In this document: piece after piece, positions 29,869 to 47,159 of the stretch
Layout: each line of letters opens with the position of its first letter
Position numbering within the stretch: the first letter of the stretch is position 1
Origin: Pigmentibacter sp. JX0631
GTDB lineage: Bacteria; Bdellovibrionota_B; Oligoflexia; Silvanigrellales; Silvanigrellaceae
Direction: 5' to 3'
Assembly (NCBI RefSeq): GCF_029873255.1
Contig: NZ_CP123622.1
Span: 3,261,001-3,325,000 of the forward strand
DNA: 64,000 nucleotides
Program-made: the position numbers and the translations under genes
The notes under the pieces: model-generated
Told to the model about the DNA's origin: nothing
Databases searched by the model: none
The model's input: only the letters and a program-made list of their open reading frames with translations

Positions 29869-32013
29869 ATGAGTTTGGAAAAGTTTCGCTATGATGATGG
29901 CATAGTAAAAAAATTCATAGCAGCAATGCTAATTTGGGGTATTGTTGGGATGTTGGTTGGAGTCATAATTGCCATCCAATTATTTTATAGACCTTTTAAC
30001 TTTGATTTGCCTTGGTTAACTTTTGGACGCTTACGGCCATTGCATACCAACGCTGTTATTTTTGCATTCTGTTTAAATGGTGTCTTTGCTGGAATTTATC
30101 ATTCTTCTCAACGTCTTTTAAAAACAAGAATGTTTAGTGATATTCTGTCAAATATTCATTTTTGGGGTTGGCAATTAATTATTGTTCTTGCTGCTATTAC
30201 TCTTCCTTTGGGATTATCTACATCCAAGGAGTACGCTGAGTTGGAATGGCCTATTGCAATTTTGATTGCGTTAATTTGGGTCATTTTTGCAATTAATTTC
30301 TTTCTCACAATAGCGATTAGAAGAGAAAAAATTCTTTATGTTTCAATTTGGTTTTATATTGCAACAATAATTACAGTTGCTCTACTTCATATAGTAAATC
30401 ATATTTCTTTACCTGTAACTTTCTTAAAAAGTTATAGTGCTTTTTCTGGAGTTAGAGATGCGTTAGTTCAGTGGTGGTATGGGCACAATGCTGTTGCGTT
30501 TGTCCTTACAACCCCATTTTTGGGGCTAGGTTATTACTATGTACCCAAATTAGTAAATAGACCTATATATTCTTATCGTTTATCTATTATTCATTTTTGG
30601 TCGCTTATTTTTATCTATATGTGGGCAGGCCCACACCACTTACAGTACACTGCACTTCCTGAATGGATTCAATCCCTTGGAGTAGTTTTTTCTGTAATGT
30701 TAATAGCTCCTTCTTGGGGTGGCGCAATTAATTTTATTTTAACAATAAAATCTGCGTGGAAAGAAATTAAATCACATCCATCCACTAAATTTTTATTGGC
30801 TGGCGCTATTTTTTATCTATGTGCAACTTTAGAAGGACCTATACTTTCATTTAAATCTGTAAACAGAGTTATGCACTATACGGATTGGATTATAGGACAT
30901 GTGCATGTGGGTGCTTTAGGATGGAATGGTTATATTCTATTTGCTATGCTTTACTGGCTAGTTCCATCTATTTATAAAACTGAATTGCAATATAAAAAAT
31001 TGGCGAACGCTCACTTTTGGATCTCTTTTATAGGAATTCTTATTTATTGTATTCCTATGTATATCGCTGGGGCAATGCTTGGTTTTATGCGGGAAAGTGT
31101 TACCGATAATGTGTTAACTTATCCAAATTTCATGGAAATGGTAAACAAAATTCTACCATATTATCAAATAAGAGCCATTGGTGGAACTCTGTATTTAGTT
31201 GGAATTATAATTGGTACATATGTAATTTATAAAACAATAAGAAAAGCTGGAAAAGTTCCAGATACTTTAGCAGAAGCGCATAGTTTCTCAACGATTGAAC
31301 ATAAAAAAACTGTATATGGAACGGTGCAAAAAGCAGCCGAAAATTTAGGGCTTGTCATGGGAATGCTTACTCTTATTGCTGTTTCCATTGGTGGTATTGT
31401 GCAAATTCTTCCCTTACTAATTAATCATTCTACAGAAGAAAAAATTGTAACTTTAAAACCATATACTCCTTTAGAAATTGAAGGCCGTGATATTTATATT
31501 CGAGAAGGATGTAATAATTGTCATTCACAAATGATCAGAACTTTTAAAGAAGAAGAAATGCGCTATGGACCATATTCCCGTGCAGGTGAATTTGAGTATG
31601 ACTTTCCACATCTTTGGGGATCAAAGACAACTGGACCAGATCTACAAAAGTTAGGAAAAAAATACGGAGATATTTGGCACTATAAACATATGGATGATCC
31701 AACTAGTATGACTCCAAATAGTACTATGCCAAAATATGATTGGCTACTAAAAGATCGTTTAGATACATCATACACGATTGATAAATTAAAAGTTATGGCA
31801 AAATTGGGAGTACCATATACTCAAGAAGATATTAATAATGCTGAATCAAACTTAAAGAAGCAAGCTGAAAAAATAGCTACTGGTCTTCAAGAGCAAGGAA
31901 TCAACGCTAATAAAAATGCTGAAATAATTGCCTTAATTGCTTACTTGCAAAGATTAGGAATTGATGGACGCGAAGCATTAGAACCTTCGACTAAAAAAAC
32001 TGAGGGGAAATAA
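29869..32013 (+). CDS. ccoNO: cbb3 cytochrome c oxidase, fused subunits I and II (CcoN-CcoO)
   Basis: The catalytic core of the high-affinity terminal oxidase. Residues about 1-490 are CcoN: about twelve or more transmembrane helices with haem and copper histidines in PLHTNAVIFAF, WWYGHNAVAF, WAGPHHLQYT and the GHVHVGALGWNG segment. Residues about 510-714 are CcoO: a membrane anchor, then a periplasmic cytochrome c domain with C548-x-x-C551-H552 and a methionine ligand segment STMPKYDW. Separate ccoN and ccoO genes are the usual proteobacterial arrangement; fused genes occur in Bacteroidota and some Bdellovibrionota. Start ATG 29869 follows GGAG. The ccoQ-like gene overlaps its stop (TAATG). 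Confidence 0.95.
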   Translation: MSLEKFRYDDGIVKKFIAAMLIWGIVGMLVGVIIAIQLFYRPFNFDLPWLTFGRLRPLHTNAVIFAFCLNGVFAGIYHSSQRLLKTRMFSDILSNIHFWGWQLIIVLAAITLPLGLSTSKEYAELEWPIAILIALIWVIFAINFFLTIAIRREKILYVSIWFYIATIITVALLHIVNHISLPVTFLKSYSAFSGVRDALVQWWYGHNAVAFVLTTPFLGLGYYYVPKLVNRPIYSYRLSIIHFWSLIFIYMWAGPHHLQYTALPEWIQSLGVVFSVMLIAPSWGGAINFILTIKSAWKEIKSHPSTKFLLAGAIFYLCATLEGPILSFKSVNRVMHYTDWIIGHVHVGALGWNGYILFAMLYWLVPSIYKTELQYKKLANAHFWISFIGILIYCIPMYIAGAMLGFMRESVTDNVLTYPNFMEMVNKILPYYQIRAIGGTLYLVGIIIGTYVIYKTIRKAGKVPDTLAEAHSFSTIEHKKTVYGTVQKAAENLGLVMGMLTLIAVSIGGIVQILPLLINHSTEEKIVTLKPYTPLEIEGRDIYIREGCNNCHSQMIRTFKEEEMRYGPYSRAGEFEYDFPHLWGSKTTGPDLQKLGKKYGDIWHYKHMDDPTSMTPNSTMPKYDWLLKDRLDTSYTIDKLKVMAKLGVPYTQEDINNAESNLKKQAEKIATGLQEQGINANKNAEIIALIAYLQRLGIDGREALEPSTKKTEGK

Positions 32014-33404: not shown

Positions 33405-35835
33405 AAAAAAAGACTCCAGTAATAACGAGAACAAGAATATTGTAACACAAAATTTATCTGCAAAGGAAGTCTTATGTTTGAATGAGTTTGAAGATAAATG
33501 TATGCACTGTAAAAAAAAATTCATAAAAATAAAATTAAATCAAATATTTTGTTGCAAAGGTTGTGCAGGAGTTTATCAATTTTTAATTTCAAATGATTTG
33601 CAAAAATATTATGAAATAATGAAAAAAGTTGGAGAAAGTCCATCTTCCGCTGAAGAGTATTCATTATCTCACTACAATATTTATGAAGACGAAAATATAA
33701 ATACGATATTTAAATTTGATAAAAATACTTGGGGATTTTTTGTACCAGAAATAAAGTGCGCTGCATGCATTTGGTTAATAGAAAAATCACTTGGAAAGAT
33801 TGAAGAAATAGAAAATATTAATATTAATTTGCTTGAAAAAACAGTTACTTTTGTAAATATAAAGAATTCAGCAAGTAATCTTAAAAATGCGGCAATGTTA
33901 TTGACTAAAATTGGCTATAATCCTCTCCCTCTTCCTTTTTTATCTTCAAAACAATTTAGATCAAAATATGAAAAGGAAAGATTAAAAGATATAGGAATTT
34001 CTGGATTTGCATTTGGAAATGTAATGATTTTTGCAGCAAGTTCTTATTTTGGAAAATTTTTTGGTATTGATGAGAAAATTAATACGGTATTTATATTAAT
34101 TAGTATGATTATCTCTTTACCTGCAACTTTTTACGCAGGAAGAAGTTTTTTTCTAAATTCCTTTCAGGCATTAAAAAATAAAAAAATACATATAGACACA
34201 ACAATTTCATTTGCATTAATTATAACTTTAGGAATTAGTGTCTATGAAACTTTTTTAAATACAACTAGAGTGTATTTTGATACTATAACTGGCTTAGTTT
34301 TTCTCCTTTTAGTAGGTAGATATTTTCATGAAAAAGCAATCCATAAAGCCAAAGAGCTTGGTGAATCAATGAAAAATATATTACCAATTGAAGCATTCTC
34401 TATAAATAAAGGGGATCAAGTTTTAATTCCTAAAGGATCAATATTTTTAGCAGATGGCATTATATTAGAAGGAGAAACTGAAGTTAATCAATCTTCATTA
34501 ACAGGTGAAGAAATGCCAGTGGTTAAAAAGGAAAATGATTTTGTAATAGCTGGTTCACAAAATATTCTAAATCCTGTTAAAATATTGGCGCAAAAAACAG
34601 GTAATGAAACATGGATTTCAAGTTTAGAAACATTAATTTGTCAAGCAAAAAATAATAAATCAAATGTCGAAACATTAATAGAAAAAATATTACCTATTTT
34701 TACTTTATCAATTATCTTTATTTCTGTACTATCTTTTTTGTATTGGATATTTATTTCTTTTGAAAAAGCTTTAGATGTATTGGTTGCTATACTAGTAATT
34801 TCTTGTCCTTGTGCATTAGCTCTGGCAACCCCATTGCTAATGTCTTCAACTCTAAAAGTATTTTGGAAAATTGGGGCAATTGTTAAGACGCAAAATGCAA
34901 TTGAAACTTTGCCAGAAATAGATACCGTTATCTTTGATAAGACTGGAACTTTAACAAGTGGCGAATTAAAAGTTCTTGAAATAGAATTTTTAAATTTAAA
35001 GGTTAGTGATGAAATAAGAACTGAAGTTCTTTCAGCATTTTATTCACTAGCAAAGCAATCTGTCCATTTAGTATCAAAAGCAATAGTTAATTATTTCCAA
35101 ATGGAAAAATTCCTGTCTGTTGACTTAAAAAATGTAAATGAACTAGCTGGGCGAGGAATAGTTGGGAATTTAAACAATGGAATTGAAATTAAGATTGGAA
35201 ATTTAAAATTTGTAAAACCAGAAGTGCAAGATACAGAAAAAAGATTTTGTGTTTATGGTAAATATGAAAATGTTTATGTGAAATTTTTAATTTCAGAGCA
35301 AATTAAAAATGGCGCTAAAGAATTAATAGATTATTTGTTTTTGAATAAAATATCTTGTTACATCTTATCAGGTGATAAAGCCTCATCAGTACAAAAAATT
35401 GCAGATGGATTAGGAATTAATCACTCACATTGTTATTCAGAGCAATTGCCAGACGAAAAATTAAAAATTTTAGAAGGTTTTCAGTATTCTGGAAAAAAAG
35501 TTTTAGCTCTTGGGGATGGGGTCAATGATGCTGCAATGTTAGCAAAAGCGCATGTTGGAATTGCTTCGCATGGTGGAACAGATGTTGCATTGCACTGTGC
35601 AGATATTTTTCTTCGTAAACCGAATTTGTTTTTAGTAAAAAATATATTTGAAATAAGCAAAAGCACAAAAAGGACGTTAAAAATTTTAATTTTGGTTAGC
35701 TTAGTTTATAATTTTGTTGCAATATTGTTTGCAGTTTTTGGCTTTGTTGATCCTCTTTTTGCGGCTTTATTCATGCCTATATCATCACTTTCTGTGTTTT
35801 TAATTGTTTATTTTAGAAAGGCCCATATAGCATGA
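33385..35835 (+). CDS. ccoI: Copper P1B-type ATPase for cbb3 assembly (CcoI)
   Basis: An inner-membrane Cu+ pump that supplies copper to the cbb3 oxidase. The 816-residue sequence shows an N-terminal metal-binding CMHC / CCKGC pair, an HMA domain with C125-A-A-C128, eight transmembrane helices, the ion channel motif S-C474-P-C476, phosphorylation motif D518KTGT and GDGVNDAAM. Starting at ATG 33385 it overlaps the divergent TauE/SafE-like start by 20 bp; TTG 33478, with AAGGAAG upstream, is an alternative start giving 785 residues. ccoS follows with a four-base ATGA overlap. Confidence 0.93.
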   Translation: MFTKLFIKKDSSNNENKNIVTQNLSAKEVLCLNEFEDKCMHCKKKFIKIKLNQIFCCKGCAGVYQFLISNDLQKYYEIMKKVGESPSSAEEYSLSHYNIYEDENINTIFKFDKNTWGFFVPEIKCAACIWLIEKSLGKIEEIENININLLEKTVTFVNIKNSASNLKNAAMLLTKIGYNPLPLPFLSSKQFRSKYEKERLKDIGISGFAFGNVMIFAASSYFGKFFGIDEKINTVFILISMIISLPATFYAGRSFFLNSFQALKNKKIHIDTTISFALIITLGISVYETFLNTTRVYFDTITGLVFLLLVGRYFHEKAIHKAKELGESMKNILPIEAFSINKGDQVLIPKGSIFLADGIILEGETEVNQSSLTGEEMPVVKKENDFVIAGSQNILNPVKILAQKTGNETWISSLETLICQAKNNKSNVETLIEKILPIFTLSIIFISVLSFLYWIFISFEKALDVLVAILVISCPCALALATPLLMSSTLKVFWKIGAIVKTQNAIETLPEIDTVIFDKTGTLTSGELKVLEIEFLNLKVSDEIRTEVLSAFYSLAKQSVHLVSKAIVNYFQMEKFLSVDLKNVNELAGRGIVGNLNNGIEIKIGNLKFVKPEVQDTEKRFCVYGKYENVYVKFLISEQIKNGAKELIDYLFLNKISCYILSGDKASSVQKIADGLGINHSHCYSEQLPDEKLKILEGFQYSGKKVLALGDGVNDAAMLAKAHVGIASHGGTDVALHCADIFLRKPNLFLVKNIFEISKSTKRTLKILILVSLVYNFVAILFAVFGFVDPLFAALFMPISSLSVFLIVYFRKAHIA

Positions 35836-36026
35836 GCGTTGTCATTTATTTAGCAATTTTTATGATATTTGTTGGTGCATTTTTTCTGGTTATTTTTTTA
35901 TTTGCCGTAAAAAATGGTCAATTTGATGATTTAGAGTCTCCTGCACATAAAATTTTACTTGATGATGATATCGAAGAAGCGGATAAAAAACAGGTCATCC
36001 AAAAATCAGATAAAAAACATGAGTAA
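35832..36026 (+). CDS. ccoS: cbb3 oxidase maturation protein CcoS
   Basis: A 64-residue single-span membrane protein needed for haem and copper insertion in CcoN. Residues about 3-27 form the helix, followed by the family motif G-Q-F-DDLESPAHKIL (33-47), which is strongly conserved. It overlaps the ccoI stop by four bases (ATGA), so it is translated with it. The tail is acidic then Lys-rich. Confidence 0.9.
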   Translation: MSVVIYLAIFMIFVGAFFLVIFLFAVKNGQFDDLESPAHKILLDDDIEEADKKQVIQKSDKKHE

Positions 36027-36080
36027 TTATAGTAAGTTAATAACTAGTTGAAAATATCTTGTTTTTCTTTTTTAACTATG

Positions 36081-36123
36081 CGAGAAGTCATTAATGCAAA
36101 TAAATTGCATTAATGACTTCTCG
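36081..36123 (+). promoter_or_regulatory. Perfect 19-bp inverted repeat adjoining the CobW ribosome binding site
   Basis: The 19-mer at 36081-36099 (CGAGAAGTCATTAATGCAA) is exactly reverse-complementary to 36105-36123, with a 5-nt loop ATAAA. Its right edge touches GGAG (36123-36126), the ribosome binding site of the CobW-like gene at 36133. No T-run follows. It could be a metal-responsive operator or an RNA hairpin controlling translation. Confidence 0.7.
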
Positions 36124-36132
36124 GAGCATCTT

Positions 36133-37185
36133 ATGGAAAATACTATTAAAAAAATTCCTGTGACACTTTTGTCTGGCTTTTTAGGTTCAGGAAAAACAAC
36201 CTTACTAAAGCAAATTCTTACAAATAAAAATAATTTAAAAGTTGCAGTAATTGTAAATGATATGGCTGAATCGAACATTGATGCCATGCTGATTCATACT
36301 GGTGAAACAAAATTGCTTAGAAAAGAAGAAACTTTAGTTGAAATGAGCAACGGTTGTATCTGCTGCACTTTGCGTGAAGACTTGCTTATTGAAATCATGA
36401 AACTGGCTAAAGAAGATAAATATGATCAAATTATTATTGAGTCTACTGGAATATCAGAACCTTTGCCTGTGGCAGAAACATTTACATTTAAAGATGAAAA
36501 TGGAGTATCATTATCTGATTTTGCATATTTAGATGCCTGTATTACAGTTGTAGATGCAAAAAATTTTCTAGAAGAATATTGCCGCTCACAAAGCCTTTTT
36601 TCTAGACAATTAACTGAAGTTGAAGATGAAAGAAATATTTCAAATTTATTAGCAGATCAAGTAGAGTTTTCCAATATAATTTTAGTTAATAAGGTAGATT
36701 TGGTGTCTGATGATGAAGAAAAAGAACTGATCTCAATCTTAAAGCAAATGAATACTAAAGCAAAGTTATATTCTACAACTAATTGTGAAATATCATTAGA
36801 TAAAATATTGCAAACAAATTTATTTAATATTTCTGAAGCAGAAGAAAATGAAAATTGGTTGTTAGAAGATAGAGGTAGCCATAATCCTGAAACTTTAGAA
36901 TATGGAATTTCAAGTTTTGTTTATAAAAATGCTAAACCTTTTGCAAAAGAAAAATTTTGGCAATTTATTGAAAAAGAAACTGATTCAATTTTACGTTCAA
37001 AAGGATTTGTTTGGTTTAATGATACACATGAATCGATCCATTTTTGGTCTCAAGCTGGAGCTTCATGTTCTATTGAAGAATATCCTGCTGATGAGCTAGA
37101 AAGGTACCAAGAAATTGTATTTATAGGACAAAATTTAGATCATAAAGAAATGATACAAAAATTAGATGCTTGTATTGCGTTATAG
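36133..37185 (+). CDS. CobW/COG0523-family metal-associated GTPase
   Basis: A G3E GTPase of 350 residues from ATG 36133 (upstream in-frame ATG 36094 lies in the hairpin). It has the P-loop GFLGSGKT (15-22), the metal-binding CICC motif (75-78) in SNGCICCTLRED, Walker B-like ESTGISEPLPV, the NKVD specificity motif and a C-terminal CobW_C domain (KGFVWFNDTHESIHFWSQAG). Family members act as zinc or other metal chaperones, often under Zur control. The large palindrome upstream fits metal regulation, but which metal is unknown. It is separate from the cco genes and is not a cobalamin-pathway context. Confidence 0.9.
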   Translation: MENTIKKIPVTLLSGFLGSGKTTLLKQILTNKNNLKVAVIVNDMAESNIDAMLIHTGETKLLRKEETLVEMSNGCICCTLREDLLIEIMKLAKEDKYDQIIIESTGISEPLPVAETFTFKDENGVSLSDFAYLDACITVVDAKNFLEEYCRSQSLFSRQLTEVEDERNISNLLADQVEFSNIILVNKVDLVSDDEEKELISILKQMNTKAKLYSTTNCEISLDKILQTNLFNISEAEENENWLLEDRGSHNPETLEYGISSFVYKNAKPFAKEKFWQFIEKETDSILRSKGFVWFNDTHESIHFWSQAGASCSIEEYPADELERYQEIVFIGQNLDHKEMIQKLDACIAL

Positions 37186-37266
37186 TTGCTAACTATAATT
37201 CATTTGTAATAAAAAAAATTTTATAATAAGATGAATTTGTTTTGTAATTTTTTGATGGACTAAAAA

Positions 37267-38148
37267 ATGTACGAACTTTTAAAGGTTTATTATAATATGC
37301 AATTTAATAAAATTCATCTCGAATTATTTTGGGCATTCGCAATTAATGTTTTTTTCTCAGTAATTTCTATTGTAGTTATTTATTTTTTAACAAAATGGTT
37401 CATTTATTTTGTTAAAAAAACAAACGAAAAAGTACAGAAAATAGATCCTACATTACTCCCTATTACTCTCACTGTAATAAAGTATGCCTCTTTTGTAGTT
37501 TGCGTTCTTGTCATTTTAAATATTTTTGGGGCAAATACGAATGGGATCATTGCTTTTTTGGGTGCAGCAGGCGTTGGTGTCGCTTTGGCATTGAAAGAAA
37601 CTTTACAAAATATTGCTTCTGGAATTATGTTAATTTTTTTAAGACCTTTTCAAGTTAACGATTATATAGAATCAAACACAAATATTGGAACAGTCCAAGA
37701 AATAAATTTATTTACTACTACATTAAAAACTCCAGATGGACTATTTCTCTTTGTTCCAAATAGTCTTTTATGGAATTCTTCGATAAAGAACTTTACCAGA
37801 AATGGTACAAGACGTTTGGATATCAATGTTAGTATTTCGTATGAAAGCGATGCCGAAAAAGCAAGAGAAATTATTCTTAATTTAACTAGATTAGATGGCA
37901 GGATTCTAAAAGAACCATCACCTATTATAGTTATTACTGCTTTGAATGAAAGTGCAGTAAATGTTATGTTAAGATGCTGGGTCTTAATTGATAATTATTG
38001 GGATGTAAATTATTACTTATATAAAACAATCAAGACTAATTTTGAAGAGCAGGGAATTTCAATTCCTTATCCACAACGTAACGTGAATTTAAAAATTCTG
38101 CACGACCCGACCGAACTAGTGAAGTTAAGTAATCAAGCAAATAAATAA
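37267..38148 (+). CDS. MscS-family mechanosensitive channel
   Basis: Opens under membrane tension to release solutes in osmotic downshock. The 293-residue protein has three transmembrane helices (about 18-45, 68-92, 96-118), the last being the Gly/Ala-packed pore helix GAAGVGVALALKETLQNIASG, followed by the LRPFQVNDYIE loop, the beta domain and the C-terminal mixed domain (GTVQEINLFTTTL). Length and order match small MscS of E. coli. ATG 37267 lacks a strong ribosome binding site. It is convergent with the lipase gene, only one base apart. Confidence 0.93.
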   Translation: MYELLKVYYNMQFNKIHLELFWAFAINVFFSVISIVVIYFLTKWFIYFVKKTNEKVQKIDPTLLPITLTVIKYASFVVCVLVILNIFGANTNGIIAFLGAAGVGVALALKETLQNIASGIMLIFLRPFQVNDYIESNTNIGTVQEINLFTTTLKTPDGLFLFVPNSLLWNSSIKNFTRNGTRRLDINVSISYESDAEKAREIILNLTRLDGRILKEPSPIIVITALNESAVNVMLRCWVLIDNYWDVNYYLYKTIKTNFEEQGISIPYPQRNVNLKILHDPTELVKLSNQANK

Positions 38149-47122: not shown

Positions 47123-47159
47123 ATTGAATAAATATTCAAAAAATGAATATTTATTCAAT
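47123..47159 (-). promoter_or_regulatory. Tandem ARG boxes upstream of argG
   Basis: Two elements fit the ArgR core TGAATWWWWATTCA perfectly: TGAATAAATATTCA (47125-47138) and TGAATATTTATTCA (47144-47157). The whole is also a 16-bp-arm inverted repeat with a 5-nt loop. Boxes lie 16 bp upstream of the argG start and centre-to-centre distance is 19 bp, slightly shorter than in E. coli (about 20-21). Confidence 0.75.

Follow-up and report, generated by a model that had tools for sequence, protein, structure and literature searches.

Why should a palindrome with long perfect arms end on the ribosome binding site of a metal-chaperone gene, and does it act on DNA, as an operator, or in RNA, as a hairpin? 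The question arises at one locus of a 64-kb window (the whole stretch of DNA analysed here, 64,000 nucleotides), where the following features are arranged in order.

35832..36026, + strand: ccoS (FixS), the upstream neighbour (PF03597), whose stop codon lies 54 nt before the palindrome
36048..36076, + strand: possible promoter of the COG0523 gene (TTGAAA 36048-36053, 17 nt, TTTAAC 36071-36076)
36081..36123, unstranded: 43-bp palindrome with 19-bp perfect arms (36081-36099 and 36105-36123) and loop ATAAA
36091..36113, unstranded: predicted full Zur box, about 23 bp (the core plus four symmetric positions per side), its extent taken from the symmetry of 27 boxes from named genomes
36095..36109, unstranded: core of the predicted Zur box, TGCAA-N5-TTGCA (TGCAAATAAATTGCA), an exact match at G000:C1:3297095-3297109
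36123..36126, + strand: Shine-Dalgarno-like GGAG, read from the sequence, its first G the final base of the 3' arm
36133..37185, + strand: ZigA-like COG0523 metal-chaperone GTPase of 350 aa, a predicted Zur target (PF02492 and PF07683 over cut-off)

The palindrome and its gene

The two arms are 100% complementary over 19 bp and enclose a loop of 5 nt. An earlier note on this DNA had described a perfect palindrome with 19-bp arms at the ribosome binding site of a CobW-type gene, and the sequence bears this out, the last G of the 3' arm also being the first G of the GGAG, which sits 6 nt ahead of the ATG at 36133. Of the extent then given, 36081-36133, the start stands and the end does not; the repeat stops at 36123, and position 36133 already belongs to the start codon, as its A. 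The further claim, that every other perfect inverted repeat in the window is shorter, holds for loops up to 8. The runner-up, at 47123-47159, has 16-bp arms and a 5-nt loop, is AT-rich, and is followed by no T-run on the + strand. From base composition, 3e-5 repeats like that at 36081-36123 are expected per 64 kb, and 19-bp arms were attained in one of 200 simulated windows (order-1 Markov). A dispersed repeat or mobile palindrome was considered and rejected, as a search of the genome returned the site itself, once per strand, and weak matches with E of at least 0.18. Folding as an RNA hairpin is predicted from either strand (z -8.6 and -9.2). Neither strand has a T-run beside the palindrome, in agreement with the earlier note; no intrinsic terminator (stem then T-run) was called in 35700-37400, and the Rfam covariance models gave no match to the window at gathering score.

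The gene that follows encodes a protein for which ZigA is the best-scoring NCBIfam model (NF038288), at 454 bits and so below the equivalog cut-off of 600 bits, and it is therefore named ZigA-like. Upstream on the same strand lie ccoI and ccoS, and an mscS-type gene lies downstream. CcoN and CcoO (COX1 and FixO domains) are fused in a single 714-aa ORF at 29869-32013 of the window. An alternative, in-frame start at the ATG at 36094, inside the palindrome, would add 13 aa and is open in the relative G002 too; it was not adopted, since the extra residues fall outside the conserved protein. A promoter is proposed at 36048-36076 because the segment 36048-36080 matches that of G002 at every base except one. 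The match of TTTAAC to a -10 element is weak, and a consensus promoter scan did not call TTGAAA-17-TTTAAC; if it is a promoter, transcription would possibly start at or just within the palindrome.

A Zur-type box at the centre

The core at the palindrome centre has ten exact sites in G000, the source genome, against none in a reversed control. Eight of the ten fall within ORFs at least 80 aa long, which leaves the palindrome 36081-36123 and the zur/zrgA promoter described below, with the qualification that the ORF script also places the palindrome site in an ORF, through a mechanical start codon within the palindrome. With one mismatch allowed, the counts rise to 56 sites and five in the control, which leaves room for a larger regulon or a looser motif than the one given here. 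The patterns AATGCAA-N(0-12)-TTGCATT and AATGCAANNNNNTTGCATT with two mismatches were too loose and were replaced by the exact core; for AATGCAANNNNNTTGCATT with two mismatches, G000 gave 67 sites and the reversed control 12.

The same core is also present ahead of COG0523 genes from several phyla. A survey of up to 300 bp before the COG0523 genes at 79 of 80 named loci (23,700 bases) found 15 exact boxes and 12 with one mismatch, spread over 20 loci, and none in the reversed control. Locus L132, with fewer than 60 bases upstream, was left out, and a false palindrome produced by masked N in L158 was ignored. A second group of COG0523 loci carries GTTAT-type boxes. In a Verrucomicrobiia genome (L116), a 40-bp palindrome is made of two mirrored Zur-type boxes at -85 to -45 from the COG0523 gene.

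Closer relatives were compared across eight genomes of the genus, G000 included. An orthologue of the COG0523 gene, at 59% identity or more, is present in five of them (G000, G002, G004, G005, G006); G003 and G007 hold only a 36% paralogue, and G001, which is 72% complete, holds none. The earlier note had named absence of the palindrome from close relatives with the same gene as evidence against its idea. A TGCAA-N5-TTGCA palindrome is in fact found before the orthologue in all five genomes that have the gene, and the ten fixed core positions are invariant in the long-palindrome box of each. In G002 the palindrome is 43 bp, with the centre base its sole imperfection. It extends to 63 bp in G005 and 37 bp in G006, and in G004 is an imperfect 41 bp (16/18 arm pairs); each of these three carries a second box before the gene. 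Upstream of the paralogous COG0523 gene (36-38% identity), no exact box was found in seven genus loci (L028, L029, L037-L041), a single one-mismatch box occurring in L038. Sixteen further family and class loci gave exact boxes in three (L023, L024 and L026, two of them twice) and a one-mismatch box in one (L019).

The regulator beside the second site

Fur-family proteins number three in each of G000, G002, G004, G005 and G006, two in G003 and G007, and none in G001, as counted in the genus search. In all five genomes with the orthologue, an exact box adjoins the gene for the third of these proteins, between it and a divergent zrgA. Across the box from the regulator, zrgA is followed by an ABC ATPase gene, again in five of five (PF10986 for G000), and znuA, present in all eight genomes of the genus, is some 2.7 kb away from the box in these five. 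In G000 (L201 1037-6716; G000:C1 about 220.0-225.7 kb), the Zur-like gene is divergent from zrgA-ABC-FtsX-znuA-znuC-znuB, so that zinc uptake genes of the ZrgA and ZnuABC types apparently form a single operon. No exact box occurs at the znuA loci of G003 and G007. These two near-complete genomes have kept znuA but lack both the Zur-like protein and the orthologue of the COG0523 gene.

The third Fur-family protein scores over cut-off for PF01475, and its top three PDB matches are 7dh7 (deposited as a Fur-family regulator, which we take to be a Xanthomonas Zur), M. tuberculosis FurB and E. coli Zur. For alignment, H77, C88, H96 and E111 together with four structural Cys were taken as the zinc ligands of E. 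coli Zur; the residues aligned to them (structural Cys4; regulatory His/Cys/His/Glu) are invariant in all five regulators. Against the NCBIfam Zur equivalog, NF008646, the regulator reaches 38.8 bits, with a cut-off of 167, and it scores slightly better to the NCBIfam Fur and PerR models. For both of these reasons its zinc role is read from genomic context, and the protein is called Zur-like.

An operator for another Fur-family regulator, Fur or PerR-like, would fit the presence of three such proteins in the genome and the slightly closer match of the third to the Fur and PerR models than to Zur, but the box is found at the znu/zrg zinc operon and at a ZigA-like gene, and the third protein, encoded beside the box, is missing along with the orthologue from G003 and G007. 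This assignment is thus given very little credence. Rather, the palindrome centre very probably serves as the operator for Zur, the Fur-family repressor that senses zinc and is encoded near 220 kb of G000:C1. The earlier note's suggestion of a Zur-like operator gains support from recurrence of the box at the zur/zrgA-znuACB promoter and before the orthologue in five of five genus genomes, and the half-sites that it singled out do recur at that divergent promoter of the same genome.

Zn-Zur would, when zinc is plentiful, occupy the box at 36091-36113, which lies on or directly behind the presumed promoter, and so block transcription of the gene for the ZigA-like zinc chaperone. When zinc is scarce, Zur would leave, and the COG0523 gene would be expressed along with zrgA-znuACB, whose promoter has the same box. 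The box, its partners, their co-occurrence and the covariation described below are computed quantities, and from them we infer binding, repression and promoter position.

A predicted motif of the same build is on record for Desulfovibrio znuABC-zur operons, where the available text of a 2004 study gives the ZUR consensus as ATGCAACNNNGTTGCAT (PMC545781). As here, that motif has the half-site TGCAA/TTGCA, a 5-bp centre and ATG..CAT outside, and its targets are alike in comprising zinc uptake and zur itself; the present site differs in its A/T rich centre and in extending to a 43-bp palindrome (PMC545781). A chaperone gene behind a predicted Zur site is likewise described for Zur-regulated COG0523 genes, although the published COG0523 Zur profiles were trained on Firmicutes and alpha-, beta- and gammaproteobacteria, and the present lineage is not among the groups named in the available portions of those papers (PMC2770081, PMC6103462). 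A search of the literature returned no description of this site.

Long arms that change together

The arms reach well beyond the box. The 27 boxes taken from named genomes are more symmetric than background over about four flanking positions, giving about 23 bp in all, and none of the 27 has 10 or more of 14 symmetric flanking pairs, a value reached at 0.2% of random window positions. One box of each of the five genus genes has 14, 14, 14, 11 and 11 of the 14 pairs symmetric, against 3-5/14 for the second genus boxes and 1-8/14 for the zur boxes. The roughly ten extra pairs per side thus appear unnecessary for the box, and the other Zur boxes of the same genomes do without them.

Arm sequence is far from fixed. 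Between G000 and G005, eight of 11 flanking positions differ per arm, both arms together, and eight of 11 flanking pairs also differ between G000 and G006. Within the COG0523 gene, 42 of 90 fourfold sites differ between G000 and G002, yet in the arms just one of 14 flanking pairs does, altered on both sides. This freedom bears on whether the arms provide additional contacts for Zur, with at least two dimers lying side by side over 40-60 bp for tighter repression. Such an arrangement has precedent, since two dimers of E. coli Zur bind at znuABC and the Zur of Streptomyces forms oligomers, as stated in the available text of PMC6103462. The free change of arm sequence weakens it, however, the eight of 11 differing pairs being hard to reconcile with sequence-specific contacts, and the zur/znu boxes and second boxes lack long arms; extra dimers are accordingly judged quite improbable.

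Change in the arms is coupled. In the alignment of five sequences, restricted to the 18 pairs in register in all of them (pairs farther out in the longer arms of G005 and of G000/G002 being left out), 95.6% of the 90 cells pair, with no G-U. Two of the four unpaired cells are in G004 beside the core, and two are at the outer edge of the stem. Ten of the 18 stem pairs have changed on both sides and none on one side only. Of 500 shuffles, 0 to 3 equalled the paired and double-change values, and pairing reached at most 40% when the partner was shifted along; the count of further pair types is unexceptional, reached by 223 of 500 shuffles. These statistics come from a small set of five related sequences, with shuffle controls that leave the relatedness in. 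Because the changes are double-sided, with none one-sided and no G-U pairs, the arms seem to have been kept equal to one another rather than held under a constraint on RNA alone.

A hairpin in RNA that adjusts translation was the earlier note's other suggestion. The same alignment bears on the proposal that the palindrome works mainly as a hairpin at the mRNA 5' end, where it would stabilise the transcript or restrict the entry of ribosomes, the Zur box falling in its stem only by overlap. A strong hairpin is predicted in all five genomes (z -8.6, -8.7, -10.9, -5.3 and -5.8), its stem covaries, and in G000 and G002 the palindrome abuts the ribosome binding site. The distance to the start codon nevertheless varies, from 9 nt in G000 and G002 to about 55 in G005, 67 in G004 and 100 in G006, and this variability, with the lack of any G-U pair in 90 cells, weakens the proposal; the core is also a DNA-binding box found at promoters that have no long hairpin. 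A primary role in the mRNA is thus considered unlikely.

Distances on the other side invite a further explanation, in which the hairpin terminates or insulates the upstream gene and keeps its read-through from the Zur-controlled one. The palindrome begins about 21-23 nt past the upstream stop codon in G004, G005 and G006, and TTTTTT follows it in G006. G000, G002, G004 and G005, by contrast, have no T-run, no terminator was called in the window, and the palindrome accompanies the COG0523 gene although the upstream neighbours vary (ccoS; a 587/588-aa protein; a trypsin-like protein). As a general account this is doubtful; termination is plausible, from the sequence, mainly for G006, which has the T-run.

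Origin of the arms

The arms would, in our preferred account, be a genus-specific extension around the Zur operator that evolves together and is most likely kept perfect by template switching during replication. Such switching has been proposed, in the available text of a study of RNA genes, to restore stems by double changes in a single event (PMC8794818). The hairpins treated there resemble those described here in their long perfect stems and their double changes without one-sided intermediates; they differ in lying in RNA genes, the present one surrounding a predicted DNA operator, where the mechanism is read from sequence pattern (PMC8794818). Template switching requires no function for the arms. 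Selection for a hairpin that shields the COG0523 gene from read-through possibly helps to keep them, and a mixed cause is possible.

That template switching caused the arms we infer with much less certainty than the Zur operator itself. The fuller picture, in which a long palindrome grew from the operator and its halves evolve in concert, arm-to-arm copying letting the flanks drift between species yet mirror each other around a fixed Zur box, is offered tentatively, as an idea that may well prove wrong.

Implications

With this assignment the lineage gains a predicted zinc regulon, consisting of a box, a regulator and two promoters. Judged by sequence, the operator appears to be a further case of a known box type, counted as known because a Zur motif of the same build had already been predicted in Desulfovibrio in 2004, and the long, jointly evolving palindrome appears to be a genus-level variation absent from the other boxes examined. 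The locus also touches a general question, namely whether compensatory changes must always point to selection on RNA structure or may instead reflect a mutation process at palindromic operators. If the tentative account of the arms is true, hairpins can be generated and preserved at operators acting as hot spots, and covariation found in promoter DNA does not by itself imply a functional RNA structure.
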